A stretch of 64,000 nt of DNA from an uncultured Lachnospiraceae bacterium (GTDB taxonomy: Bacteria > Bacillota > Clostridia > Lachnospirales > Lachnospiraceae): contig CAJODN010000003.1 in NCBI GenBank assembly GCA_905233695.1, positions 1,542-65,541 on the forward strand, given 5' to 3'. A program made the translations under genes and the position numbers. Under the pieces are notes generated by a model. That model made no database searches. It was given only the letters and a program-made list of their open reading frames with translations, and had not been told where the DNA came from. Shown piece by piece: positions 44,660-51,168 of this stretch (position 1 is its first letter; every line of letters starts with the position of its first letter).

Positions 44660-45439
44660 CTACAATTTCTGAAGTGTCTCTATGGCATTTCCCAGAATAA
44701 CAGAAGAATAGTGCTCAGTAAAATACGCATCACTTCCGATAGACAGATTCTGCTGCTCACTATACTCAGATATTATATTACACACCTTGTTGAACTCTTC
44801 CGGCGTGTGACTTGACTTACTGCAGACAAGATAATACTTGCCGTTATGCTTATTCTTGTAGAGCGCATTCTCTCCGTGGTAGAAGTCACCCAGCACATTT
44901 GCCAGGTTAATAACATCATCGAGAGAATCGAATACGAATAGCTTCGTAACATCAATGGGAATCTCCAGCTCGGTGTTCTGACCGCCGGCCTTCTTAAGAG
45001 TCTCCGTTACTTCCTTAGCCTTCTTGAATAGGTCGATAATGTCACTGGCAGACGTACGACGCTTCTCTTCGATATCCTCGAATTCGTAGTCGTCCGTATC
45101 GTAATCATAGTCGTACATATCGTCGTATTCGCCGTCTTCGTACTCTCCGTTATCCTCTGTAAAATGTGAAAATCTAGTATCCAGTTCCTCGGGATACTCA
45201 ATCTTCGTAACGATAAGCACAATACTATCGTCAGAGAGAGGGACAGCCTCTATCATAAGCGGAATATTTTCAGCTTCAAAACCGTATTTATATGATGCCC
45301 ACTTTAACATTTCACGAAAGAGAGACTTTGCCTTGTCGGTACCGTATGCAAGCTCGGTAAGATTAATGTGGCGAAGCTCAAGATCTTCCTTAGTTAACGT
45401 GCATCTGATTTGATTGTCGTTAATCTTTTCTATCTTCAT
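44660..45439 (-). CDS. mecA: Adaptor protein MecA
   Basis: MKIEKINDNQIRCTLTKEDLELRHINLTELAYGT; C-terminal MecA domain. Confidence 0.93.
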   Translation of the reverse strand: MKIEKINDNQIRCTLTKEDLELRHINLTELAYGTDKAKSLFREMLKWASYKYGFEAENIPLMIEAVPLSDDSIVLIVTKIEYPEELDTRFSHFTEDNGEYEDGEYDDMYDYDYDTDDYEFEDIEEKRRTSASDIIDLFKKAKEVTETLKKAGGQNTELEIPIDVTKLFVFDSLDDVINLANVLGDFYHGENALYKNKHNGKYYLVCSKSSHTPEEFNKVCNIISEYSEQQNLSIGSDAYFTEHYSSVILGNAIETLQKL

Positions 45440-45585: not shown

Positions 45586-45614
45586 TTGCATGTCGAATTA
45601 AACTTTGGTATAAG
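45586..45614 (+). promoter_or_regulatory. Candidate promoter of the kinase-like gene
   Basis: TTGCAT-17 nt-TATAAG. Confidence 0.5.
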
Positions 45615-45624
45615 AATAATTGAG

Positions 45625-46926
45625 ATGCTTCTTTCGAAAGAAGGAGGCGATAGAATTAACATTTCACAGAAATTGTCTGACAAGTATGATGAGATTAAGG
45701 TAATATATGAATCGGCAGCCAGTCTCGTAATACTTGTAAGGCTAAAGAGTCTTAGGCACGAACGAATTATCAAGAGAATTGCAAAAAGTTCGGATAAAGG
45801 TCGTGACAATTCTTTAAAAGAGGCTGACATCCTCTTGAATCTGAGACATCCCAACATACCTATACTCTACGATCTTGAAGAAGATGAAGATTACTTCTAT
45901 CTGGTAGAGGAATATATTGTCGGAGAGTCTATGGCAGATTATTTATATCTGCATCAAAGCATTTCCCATAGAGAGCTTATACGGATAGCGACGGAATTAT
46001 ATAACGTACTGGAGTACCTCCATAACTTCGAGACACCGATCTGCTATCAGGATATGAAGCTCGAGCATATCTATTTATCGAAGGGGCGAATAGTCCTTAT
46101 CGATTACGGTATTGCAACTTATCTTAGGGATAAAGAAAGTCCTATGTACGGAACACTTTCATATGTATCGGAGGCGCAGCTCCAGGGTAAATGTGACGTG
46201 TCAAATGACATTATAAGTACCAAGGTAGCGCTTAAGAAAATATATGAAAGCTCTAAGGAGAAGCGCAGCCTTCCGATAGAACGTCTGTTAAAGTGTGATG
46301 TTAACGGCACGGCTACGGAAGAAAAGCTAAGGTGGCTTTTCCTTTTGGCAGACGAAAATAAGGAAAAGAAGCATCTCGATGTGAATATAGCGGTTGTAGG
46401 AAATGATAAGGGGATAGGCGTAAGTCACATTGCCATAGCTATTAATTGTTATCTTAACAATAAGGGTATTGAAAGCTTTTATATTGATGAAAGTGCAGGC
46501 GATGTAATTGAGAAACTGTCGGCAAGAGACAGAAGCCTTAATGAGAAGGATAATATTATATACCACGATTGTTTTAAGGGGCTTCGCCGAAGCGGCGAAG
46601 CTTTAGAAGAAAAAATCCCTCCGACCGGGCTTATGGTCATAGACTGCGGTACGTGTATCGATAAAGCGAAGAGAAGCGACATTATAATATATGTCGTATC
46701 ATCAAGGCTCTATAAGAGTAACGAAATTGATGATGTAGCCTTCGAGAAAAGAACATGTGTCATAGTTAACCCCAGGTCTGTGTGGACAGGAGTAGAGATT
46801 GCCAAGATGCTTTCGAAGAAAGTTTACTCATTTCCCATAGATGAAGATCCGTTTGCTATAACCCAAGTCAAAAACCAGGTGTTAGATAGAATTATTAGTA
46901 AGATTATACCAAATAGTTCGGATTGA
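45625..46926 (+). CDS. Protein kinase-like domain fused to a degenerate ParA/MinD-like domain (start uncertain)
   Basis: EADILLNLRHPNIPILYDL, CYQDMKLEHIYL...LIDYGIA; then VAVVGNDKGIGVSHIAIAINCYL. Confidence 0.8.
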   Translation: MLLSKEGGDRINISQKLSDKYDEIKVIYESAASLVILVRLKSLRHERIIKRIAKSSDKGRDNSLKEADILLNLRHPNIPILYDLEEDEDYFYLVEEYIVGESMADYLYLHQSISHRELIRIATELYNVLEYLHNFETPICYQDMKLEHIYLSKGRIVLIDYGIATYLRDKESPMYGTLSYVSEAQLQGKCDVSNDIISTKVALKKIYESSKEKRSLPIERLLKCDVNGTATEEKLRWLFLLADENKEKKHLDVNIAVVGNDKGIGVSHIAIAINCYLNNKGIESFYIDESAGDVIEKLSARDRSLNEKDNIIYHDCFKGLRRSGEALEEKIPPTGLMVIDCGTCIDKAKRSDIIIYVVSSRLYKSNEIDDVAFEKRTCVIVNPRSVWTGVEIAKMLSKKVYSFPIDEDPFAITQVKNQVLDRIISKIIPNSSD

Positions 46927-47720: not shown

Positions 47721-47820
47721 GTGTTAATATACTAGGGATTGAAGTAATACTTTGATACTGCTTGCAGTAGCAAAGTATTACTTGAAGACCTTAAAAACAA
47801 TATATCTAACGGGGACATCT

Positions 47821-49536
47821 ATGGATAAATTCAAAAAATTAGCAAGTAAAATAGTCACAGACAAACGCTTCATAATAATTCTTATTATTCTTGTAGTGCT
47901 TGTTGTTGCGGGAATACTTATCTACAATAAGAGGTACTCTCCCAGCAACGAAACAATGACTCTTAACGAGTATTATGAGGTTAAGGGCGATGAGATGGCG
48001 GTGATTATTGACGGTGACCTTCTCTCTAATATTGACGGCGCTCCCGACGGAATCGTCAGGAATAATACTCCTTATGTAAAATGTAAGACAATAAATGACG
48101 CAATTAAAGATGTCTACGCTTATGACAACTCCGAGCATAAGGTGAGCTTCACCACTACGGAAGGAACGTACAGAGGTACAGCCGGCGCCACCGGATACAC
48201 TTTCAAAGGTCAGAACGTTGCCACTGACTATGTGCCGCTTATAGAAGCAAACGGCACGGGATACATAGCTCTCGGATTCGTTAAGGATACAACGGGAACG
48301 GAATATACGTTTAACCAGGATCCCGCAAGGGCGGCAATATACACTCCCGGAGCGGAGAGAACGAAGGCCGAAATCGATGAAGATATCGAGATGAGACGCT
48401 TCGGCGGTAACAGAAGTAAGATTCTTGCTACGGCGAAGAAGGGTGATAAGATTACGGTTGTCGAGAATTACGGAAGCTGGAGTCAGGTTCTTACAGAGGA
48501 CGGAATCCTCGGCTGCGTTCCCAACAGTGCCATAGATGACAAGGATACTGTTAAGAATAAGACGGGCGCGGCACAAGACAGCCTGAAGCACAACCTTATG
48601 AGCGAGCCCATAAGACTTGGCTGGCACCAGGCATTTTCAAGTGCGGCAAACGGCGAGGTTGAGTCAGTCTTAAGCACCGCAGGAGGCATGAATGTTATAA
48701 GTCCGACCTGGCTTCAGATTAAGGACAACAAGGGCTCACTTAATAACCTGTCTAATGACAATTATGTTAACCTCTGCCATGGCAAAGGTATCAAGGTGTG
48801 GGTGCTCGTAAGCAATATTGAACGTGACGTTGATGAAAATCAGTTATTCAACGTAACATCAACGAGAGATGCACTTGTTAACAATATAGTAAGCGCCGTT
48901 ACGGCCGTTGGTGCCGATGGTGTTAACGTTGATATAGAGTCGGTAGGCGATAACAACGTCGATGGCTATACGGAGTTTATTAAGACACTTGCTTTGAAAT
49001 GTAAAGAGAATAACCTGGTTCTTTCGGTAGACAATTATAATATCAGTTCCGCTGACTACAATGTTGATGTTCAAGCCAGGTTCACGGATTATGTTGTGCT
49101 CTTCGGATACGACGAGACATGGACCGGAGCCGGTAAAGCGGGATCTAACAACTCAATTAATTGGGTTAAGAAGGGCGTGGAAGGAATGCTCGCCGAAGGC
49201 GTAGATAAGTCTCAGCTAATCCTTGCGATTCCATTCTATACAAGGCTTTGGATTCAATCGGGTGACACTGTAACAAGTGAAACCGTTACGCTTAAGGATA
49301 CCCCGGCGCTTTTAGAGCAGAATAACGCTACGGCAAATTGGCTTAAGGAGAACAAGGAGAATTACGCCGAGTGGTCGAACGGCGACAAGAAATACAGTAT
49401 CTGGATTGTGGACAATAAATCCCTTCAGGAGCGTGTGAACTACGTAATGGAGAAGAAGCTCGCAGGTATAGCGGCTTGGAAGCTGGGTAACGAGACGGCT
49501 GATACATGGAAGATGATCTCAGACACAGTGCGATAG
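47821..49536 (+). CDS. Membrane-anchored GH18-family protein with SH3-like region
   Basis: N-terminal TM; DGVNVDIE catalytic motif; start at ATG 47821 (MDKFKK). Confidence 0.88.
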   Translation: MDKFKKLASKIVTDKRFIIILIILVVLVVAGILIYNKRYSPSNETMTLNEYYEVKGDEMAVIIDGDLLSNIDGAPDGIVRNNTPYVKCKTINDAIKDVYAYDNSEHKVSFTTTEGTYRGTAGATGYTFKGQNVATDYVPLIEANGTGYIALGFVKDTTGTEYTFNQDPARAAIYTPGAERTKAEIDEDIEMRRFGGNRSKILATAKKGDKITVVENYGSWSQVLTEDGILGCVPNSAIDDKDTVKNKTGAAQDSLKHNLMSEPIRLGWHQAFSSAANGEVESVLSTAGGMNVISPTWLQIKDNKGSLNNLSNDNYVNLCHGKGIKVWVLVSNIERDVDENQLFNVTSTRDALVNNIVSAVTAVGADGVNVDIESVGDNNVDGYTEFIKTLALKCKENNLVLSVDNYNISSADYNVDVQARFTDYVVLFGYDETWTGAGKAGSNNSINWVKKGVEGMLAEGVDKSQLILAIPFYTRLWIQSGDTVTSETVTLKDTPALLEQNNATANWLKENKENYAEWSNGDKKYSIWIVDNKSLQERVNYVMEKKLAGIAAWKLGNETADTWKMISDTVR

Positions 49537-49625: not shown

Positions 49626-49653
49626 TTGATTGAAATACGAAAAATGGTATAAT
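49626..49653 (+). promoter_or_regulatory. Promoter of the Sua5 fusion gene
   Basis: TTGATT-16 nt-TATAAT, 6 nt before ATG 49660. Confidence 0.7.
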
Positions 49654-49659
49654 ACCTCT

Positions 49660-51168
49660 ATGGATACATGTATACTTAAAGTTGATTGGTCTGACGTAGG
49701 TCAACAGGCCTTAGAGAAGGCGGCTAAGATAATTAAAGACGGCGGACTTGTGGCATTTCCCACGGAAACTGTATACGGACTGGGAGGCGATGCCAAGAAC
49801 TCCCGGTCAGCGAAGAGAATCTACAGAGCCAAAGGAAGACCCAGCGACAATCCCCTTATTGTACATATAGCCACCATAAGCCAGCTCGATGAGGTGGCTG
49901 AGGATATACCGGAATATGCGGAAGACCTGGCGGAAGCGTTCTGGCCGGGACCGCTGACACTGATACTTAATAAGAACAGATCCGTACCAAGACATACGAC
50001 CGGAGGACTTAGTACGGTTGCGGTTAGGATGCCGGATAATGAGATAGCAAGAGAGCTTATAATTAAGAGCGAATGTTTAATTGCCGCACCTTCGGCAAAT
50101 GCATCAGGGCGCCCAAGCCCCACCACGGCAGAGCATGTGAAGGCGGATCTTAATGGCAGAATAGATGCAATAATTGATGCGGGCCCCTGCGAAGTGGGAG
50201 TGGAATCGACGATTCTTGATCTTACGACCGATGTTCCCACAATACTTCGCCCCGGAATGATTACCAAGGAGATGATCGAGCAGGTACTCGGAAGGGTTAT
50301 TATAGACGCATCTAAGTCAGAGGAAGAGTCGGACGACAAGCCCAAGGCACCGGGCATGAAATACAAGCATTACGCACCCAAGGCGAGTCTTACCATCGTT
50401 GAAGGAAGGCCGGCAAGGGTTGCATCATATATTAATTCACAGATAAGAGAGGGTAATTTACTCGGTCTTACAACGGGAATTATAGCAAGCGAGGAGAACC
50501 GGAAGAGATACGGGGGCGACTTCGTTAAGACAATCGGTTCCTTAGAGGACGAGAAGGAGATAGCGCATAATCTCTACAGTACGCTTAGGGAATTCGATGA
50601 TCTTAAGGTAGACAGGATTTACTCGGAGAGCTTTGATAATCTTGAAAATGCGGATGCAATAATGAATAGACTGGAAAAAGCGGCAGGCCATAAGGTAATA
50701 AGTGCCGATAAGGTGTCTATTTCGAGAATTATCTTCGCGGGTAAGAACGGCTCGAACAGAAGCCCAATGGCAGCGAGCATTCTTAAGACCATGAAGATGG
50801 ATAAGAACTACGAGATTCTTTCTCGCGGGATTCTTGTTCAGTTCCCGGAGCCTTTGAACCCTAAGATTGAAGCGGTTCTTAAGAGTAACGGGATAGAAGT
50901 GGAGGATTATCACGCCGAGCAGCTTAAAAGCGAAGATATCACTCCCACAACTATAGTATTTACCATGGAAGAGTCTCACAGAGACAGAATTATAGAGACG
51001 ATAGACAGGGCGAACGAAGATAATACATTTGTATTAACGAAGTATGTTGGCAACGAACTTGAGATTCCCAATCCTTACGGCGGTTCGCTTCAGCTTTACG
51101 GACTTTGTTTTGAATCAATTAAAGAGACACTTAACAGTTTGGTTAACGTATTAGATCAGGAGGGCTAG
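49660..51168 (+). CDS. Threonylcarbamoyl-AMP synthase (Sua5/YwlC) fused to an LMW phosphatase-like domain
   Basis: GLVAFPTETVYGLGGDA, KGRPSDNPLIVHI, PGMKYKHYAPKA; C-terminal NRSPMAASIL...PNPYGGSLQLY. Confidence 0.93.
   Translation: MDTCILKVDWSDVGQQALEKAAKIIKDGGLVAFPTETVYGLGGDAKNSRSAKRIYRAKGRPSDNPLIVHIATISQLDEVAEDIPEYAEDLAEAFWPGPLTLILNKNRSVPRHTTGGLSTVAVRMPDNEIARELIIKSECLIAAPSANASGRPSPTTAEHVKADLNGRIDAIIDAGPCEVGVESTILDLTTDVPTILRPGMITKEMIEQVLGRVIIDASKSEEESDDKPKAPGMKYKHYAPKASLTIVEGRPARVASYINSQIREGNLLGLTTGIIASEENRKRYGGDFVKTIGSLEDEKEIAHNLYSTLREFDDLKVDRIYSESFDNLENADAIMNRLEKAAGHKVISADKVSISRIIFAGKNGSNRSPMAASILKTMKMDKNYEILSRGILVQFPEPLNPKIEAVLKSNGIEVEDYHAEQLKSEDITPTTIVFTMEESHRDRIIETIDRANEDNTFVLTKYVGNELEIPNPYGGSLQLYGLCFESIKETLNSLVNVLDQEG

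Follow-up and report, generated by a model that had tools for sequence, protein, structure and literature searches.

A putative pseudophosphatase domain of YwlE type fused to Sua5 in Lachnospiraceae

A Sua5 fusion gene and its C-terminal domain

The window, by which we mean the whole 64,000-nucleotide stretch of DNA analyzed here, stems from an uncultured Lachnospiraceae bacterium and carries on its forward strand a Sua5-pseudoYwlE fusion gene (49660 to 51168), one uninterrupted open frame encoding 502 amino acids. The product comprises the TsaC/YrdC-like catalytic domain of Sua5 (amino acids 23 to 199, 49726 to 50256; Pfam PF01300 Sua5_yciO_yrdC, E value 3.8e-62), the SUA5 C-terminal domain (amino acids 201 to 343, 50260 to 50688; PF03481 Sua5_C, 9.5e-38), and a putative pseudophosphatase domain of YwlE/LMW-PTP fold (amino acids 357 to 494, 50728 to 51141; PF01451 LMWPc, 2.7e-15). 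All three Pfam domains score above their cutoffs, LMWPc with 57 bits versus 23.2. Both domains that define membership in Sua5, YrdC/TsaC and SUA5, exceed curated cutoffs, and the Sua5 part is assigned as L-threonylcarbamoyladenylate synthase above the curated cutoff of NCBIfam TIGR00057. It is 48% identical to Pyrococcus abyssi Sua5 (TMt 0.95). Thus, the protein shares two complete Sua5 domains with the known threonylcarbamoyl-AMP synthases (TIGR00057; PDB 6f87) and differs from them in its extra C-terminal domain. The fusion is the only Sua5/TsaC-family (PF01300) gene in the assembly, which is 97.6% complete; TsaD-family (PF00814) matches number two, both on one contig other than that of the fusion.

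A sigma-A-like promoter, TTGATT-16-TATAAT (49626 to 49653, forward strand), precedes the gene, with the -10 element ending 6 bases before the ATG. This distance is identical in all eight members of the genus compared, and no ribosome-binding site lies between the -10 element and the ATG, which suggests that the fusion gene is transcribed as a leaderless mRNA. The gene 3' of the fusion is dCMP-deaminase-like and is followed by open reading frames that read as ATP synthase subunits by sequence. Directly upstream, 47752 to 49536 encodes a protein that combines SH3_3 with glycosyl hydrolase 18 and has a hydrophobic stretch at its N terminus. Farther upstream, a protein-kinase-like domain joined to a C-terminal part of no assigned type (45586 to 46926) adjoins a MecA gene on the reverse strand (44660 to 45439).

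Among solved structures, YwlE (4pic) and the Thermoanaerobacter tengcongensis LMW-PTP (4egs) come closest to the C-terminal part. Modeled alone by AlphaFold, the domain was predicted with high confidence (pLDDT of 93.6, pTM of 0.89), and a Foldseek search with this model returned YwlE 4pic first (TM-score of 0.85, E value 2.8e-13). The LMW-PTP/YwlE layout that the original prediction had read from the sequence is thus borne out by the Pfam match and by the predicted fold. The full-length model (pLDDT of 92.7, pTM of 0.79) matched P. abyssi Sua5, with YwlE lower in the list.

The P-loop of the fusion reads IIFAGKNGSNRSPMA. In the alignment to YwlE structures, Gly361 (50740 to 50742) occupies the position of the nucleophile Cys7 (YwlE numbering), as originally proposed, the GN of CxGNxC has become NG, and Cys12 is replaced by Asn. 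The phosphate-binding arginine of the loop, Arg13, is retained as Arg367 (50758 to 50760). The general-acid loop reads IPNPYGG and has Asn471 (51070 to 51072) in place of Asp118. The reference row that we take to represent Bacillus subtilis YwlE agrees with the 1zgg alignment where that alignment covers it. Active YwlE is recognized by a C-x4-C-R-S/T P-loop with nucleophile Cys7, by the general acid Asp118 in a DP(F/Y)G loop, and by McsB in the genome; the fusion has neither of the two sequence features, and no McsB was found in this genome (see below). LMW-PTP chemistry needs a cysteine nucleophile, and the C-terminal part is predicted to be a YwlE orthologue that has lost its arginine phosphatase activity.

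Conservation in the genus and loss of the catalytic site in the family

All eight species of the genus that were compared carry the fusion. Position 7 is Gly in seven of them and Ser in one, and none has Cys; position 118 is Asn in seven and Asp in one. The replacement of the general acid claimed by the original prediction therefore stands for this protein and for most of the genus but not for the species that keeps Asp. The pseudophosphatase domain of the window is 62 to 81% identical to those of its genus-mates, similar to the Sua5 core (69 to 77%) and mostly above the SUA5 domain (58 to 65%). It contains no internal stops, and its dN/dS by the NG86 method is about 0.03 to 0.14 for genus pairs with measurable dS, dS being saturated for many others; in the pair L155-L156, it is 0.035, and the two Sua5 domains have values of 0.054 and 0.116. 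Our reading is that purifying selection acts on a noncatalytic domain in this genus. With Cys7 lost in eight of eight species and dN/dS this low, the domain is neither the product of a sequencing error or one-off mutation nor a decaying pseudogene. A kept fold, lost catalytic residues, and purifying selection on the protein together agree with the proposal of a conserved pseudophosphatase.

The loss extends far beyond the genus. Among 299 genomes of the family Lachnospiraceae, nearly all of different genera, 148 had a match. Once classical LMW-PTPs, duplicates, and two loci with an unalignable P-loop had been set aside, 137 Sua5-type copies remained: 19 are fused to Sua5, 108 have Sua5 adjacent, and for the other 10 no Sua5 scored in the stretch examined. 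Cys7 is absent from 87 of the 137 copies (C in 50, S in 48, D in 19, G in 9, A in 7, E in 2, and T in 2), and only 16 combine Cys7, GN, Arg13, and Asp118 in a full canonical site. One copy, L114 in genome G074, has a complete YwlE site save for Cys7, which is Ser as in the crystallized YwlE C7S mutant. The best tree has 22 changes in the presence of Cys and 9 in fusion, with strongly supported branches forcing only three changes for the Cys-less group; the catalytic residues were probably lost several times in the family.

Since a degenerate site is common to most Sua5-linked YwlE copies of the family, fused or separate, the loss is not due to fusion: the majority of dead copies stand as genes of their own, and fusions outside the family look active. 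A class-wide search, in which 30 loci were examined, yielded 27 copies from outside Lachnospiraceae, all canonical with CxGNTCRS and a DP loop. They had ranked highest against a profile in which dead copies predominate, and their selection, if anything, favored dead copies. Three of them, L265, L267, and L271 from another Clostridia family, are Sua5 fusions that share the domain order of the fusion described here but keep CTGNTCRSPM and DPFG and lack the family motif described below. Adjacency of ywlE and sua5 is found across Clostridia.

Among 23 sampled genera without a match, 22 have an intact Sua5 and no ywlE found beside sua5, and the remaining one (G040) yielded a Sua5 fragment only. As judged from these 22 genomes with an ordinary Sua5, the Sua5-linked ywlE gene is dispensable. 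At the loci L293 to L313, where ywlE is missing, the genes after sua5 are rpiB-like, upp-like, or deaminase-like. A search bias toward dead copies that hides many canonical ones is unlikely because the search reached classical LMW-PTPs and because these 22 genera had no ywlE beside sua5.

A family motif and the phospho-arginine system

When the 87 family copies without Cys7 were compared position by position with the 16 canonical ones and with the 27 from outside the family, the Cys-less copies proved to have lost constraint at positions 7, 8, 9, 10, 12, 14, 115, and 118. Arg13 is kept in 82% of them. The dead copies hold another stretch more strictly than the active site, namely, RGxVVxFPEPxNxK (R35, G36, V39, F40, P41, E42, P43, N48, and K50), present in the window as SRGILVQFPEPLNPK (amino acids 388 to 402, 50821 to 50865). 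These positions are 87 to 100% conserved in the Cys-less copies, and almost all of them are fixed in the canonical family copies too, with P41 at 62%. Outside the family they are variable, except for those of G36 and N48, which replace conserved Ser residues. The presence of the motif in both canonical and dead family copies suggests that it probably arose before the catalytic loss and outlived it. It falls in a stretch that we take to be the variable loop of LMW-PTPs near the mouth of the active site. A further conserved element, YGLCFE (amino acids 480 to 485, 51097 to 51114), marks the start of the C-terminal helix.

Neither the genome of the window nor genome G252 has a match to McsB (PF00217). 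CtsR was not found in the window's genome either, and Clp_N proteins number two. With neither McsB nor CtsR found, this bacterium may make no phospho-arginine whatsoever. The advice to look for a separate active YwlE in the genome led only to L001, an LMW-PTP of the classical type with LFICHGNICRSP and DPWYTG. Phospho-arginine sensing, one of the two roles originally suggested, is weakened by the lack of McsB and CtsR relative to the other, a link to t6A synthesis.

Across the family, McsB-positive genomes contain 15 of the 16 canonical copies but only 13 of the remaining 121 (Fisher P = 1.4e-11, from raw counts that ignore phylogeny). Similarly, of the genomes that have McsB, 12 of 15 with a canonical YwlE but 4 of 45 without one keep its motifs intact, namely, NE[ED]D and the GEG glutamate (phylogeny again ignored). 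We presume the motif positions from those of phosphagen kinases, the McsB paper having yielded no residue numbers when searched for them. An independent-pairs test of the McsB association, for which supported branches provided only three pairs, was not significant. McsB presence does not require a canonical YwlE, which occurs in 15 of the 69 genomes with an annotated McsB. Most of the McsB homologues examined (L241 to L260 and L315 to L354) have altered motifs, often NGDDH and FPTN or YPTN versus NEEDH and CPTN, and look as if they were pseudokinases. Overall, genomes with a degenerate or missing YwlE mostly lack McsB or have one with altered catalytic motifs.

Possible roles in t6A synthesis

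We consider it probable that the domain is a pseudophosphatase left behind by the decay of the phospho-arginine system, and that Sua5 and t6A synthesis retain it as a module for binding or regulation; it probably binds rather than catalyzes. Repeated fusion of neighboring genes is classical evidence, albeit not proof, of interaction. The t6A link suggested in the original prediction thus finds backing in genomic linkage and repeated fusion to Sua5 and also in the published control of TsaD by McsB and YwlE: YwlE shields the TsaD of B. subtilis from degradation by ClpCP after marking by McsB (PMC7546277). The ancestral YwlE might have had phospho-arginine of TsaD as its substrate, with the docking outlasting the chemistry. 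In lineages that mostly lack McsB or have an altered one, the catalytic residues have been lost; the P-loop arginine usually remains, as do the fold and the motif, and in several lineages, this genus included, the dead protein is fused to Sua5. Working by binding alone, the domain could hold Sua5 near its t6A partner or partners, most plausibly TsaD or TsaBDE as receivers of the short-lived TC-AMP, which decays in minutes and for which a Sua5-TsaD handover was proposed (PMC9654439). Alternatively, it could tune Sua5 via the old phosphate pocket. More tentatively, and with the odds somewhat against so full an account, we speculate that the family-wide pseudophosphatase descends from a phospho-arginine eraser whose writer became a pseudokinase or was lost, and that it is now a dedicated t6A subunit or domain which brings Sua5 and TsaD together or serves as a phospho-ligand sensor.

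A purely structural role, in which the dead domain stabilizes or dimerizes Sua5 or shields the SUA5 domain with no other partner, is compatible with the contiguous fusion, the confident full-length model, and the conserved motif, and with the 19 fused copies. We nevertheless regard it as unlikely, considering that most copies are separate genes, that genera lacking the gene have an ordinary Sua5, and that the retained P-loop arginine is left unexplained. It is also conceivable that the fusion merely coordinates expression.

That arginine, kept in most Cys-less copies, is in line with a sensor or substrate trap whose dead pocket binds a phosphorylated protein or ATP, AMP, or PPi and signals to Sua5. 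The 48 copies with Ser for Cys have the same change as the YwlE C7S crystal with a phosphorylated active-site serine (4kk4). However, P-loop positions 8 to 12 vary freely, and Gly, Asp, and Glu also replace Cys, which implies that a precise phosphate nest is not conserved; moreover, the domain is present in a genome without McsB. We therefore place this explanation, too, among the improbable ones.

Neutral decay of a phosphatase drifting toward deletion after phospho-arginine signaling was lost might account for the many lineages with catalytic loss and for the 22 of 23 sampled nonmatching genera in which no ywlE was found at the sua5 locus. For this genus it is contradicted by dN/dS, and it agrees poorly with a domain that is free of stops and matches the Sua5 catalytic core roughly in conservation, and with the strictness of the family motif in dead copies; hence, we deem it very unlikely. 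Least probable of all is an enzyme that still uses another nucleophile or performs another reaction: Ser and Asp are frequent at position 7, but Gly, Ala, Glu, and Thr occur there as well, Gly dominates in this genus, Asp118 is mostly Asn, and the chemistry of the family depends on Cys.

The binding module that we favor shares with the YwlE/PtpB arginine phosphatases (PF01451) the fold, the sua5 neighborhood, the P-loop arginine, and a DPYG-like loop, and differs from them in having lost Cys and usually Asp, in having gained RGxVVxFPEPxNxK, in being fused to Sua5, and in its occurrence in a genome without McsB. Phosphatase folds without the catalytic Cys that are selectively kept are known as pseudophosphatases in eukaryotes; those proposed here are, by comparison, bacterial, of LMW-PTP type, and tied to tRNA modification. 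We found no bacterial LMW pseudophosphatase and no earlier description of a Sua5-phosphatase fusion in the literature searched, an absence that is not proof of novelty; the word phosphatase does not occur in a paper on Sua5/TsaC evolution (PMC10321239).

If correct, our reading would provide a clear bacterial case in which a writer, McsB, and an eraser, YwlE, lose catalysis and at least the eraser protein is kept. It also points toward a physical connection of YwlE with Sua5, possibly in B. subtilis as well, where McsB and YwlE control TsaD. The carriers are gut and rumen Lachnospiraceae, and Sua5 is a universal tRNA modification enzyme. Degenerate P-loops were found at named loci of Roseburia, Pseudobutyrivibrio, Lachnobacterium, and Shuttleworthella, and the cultured carriers, which make this reading testable, include Roseburia hominis and Roseburia faecis, Pseudobutyrivibrio, Lachnobacterium bovis, and Shuttleworthella satelles. 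In the Eubacterium oxidoreducens copy, GN is lost, whereas Cys7, Arg13, and Asp118 are all retained.
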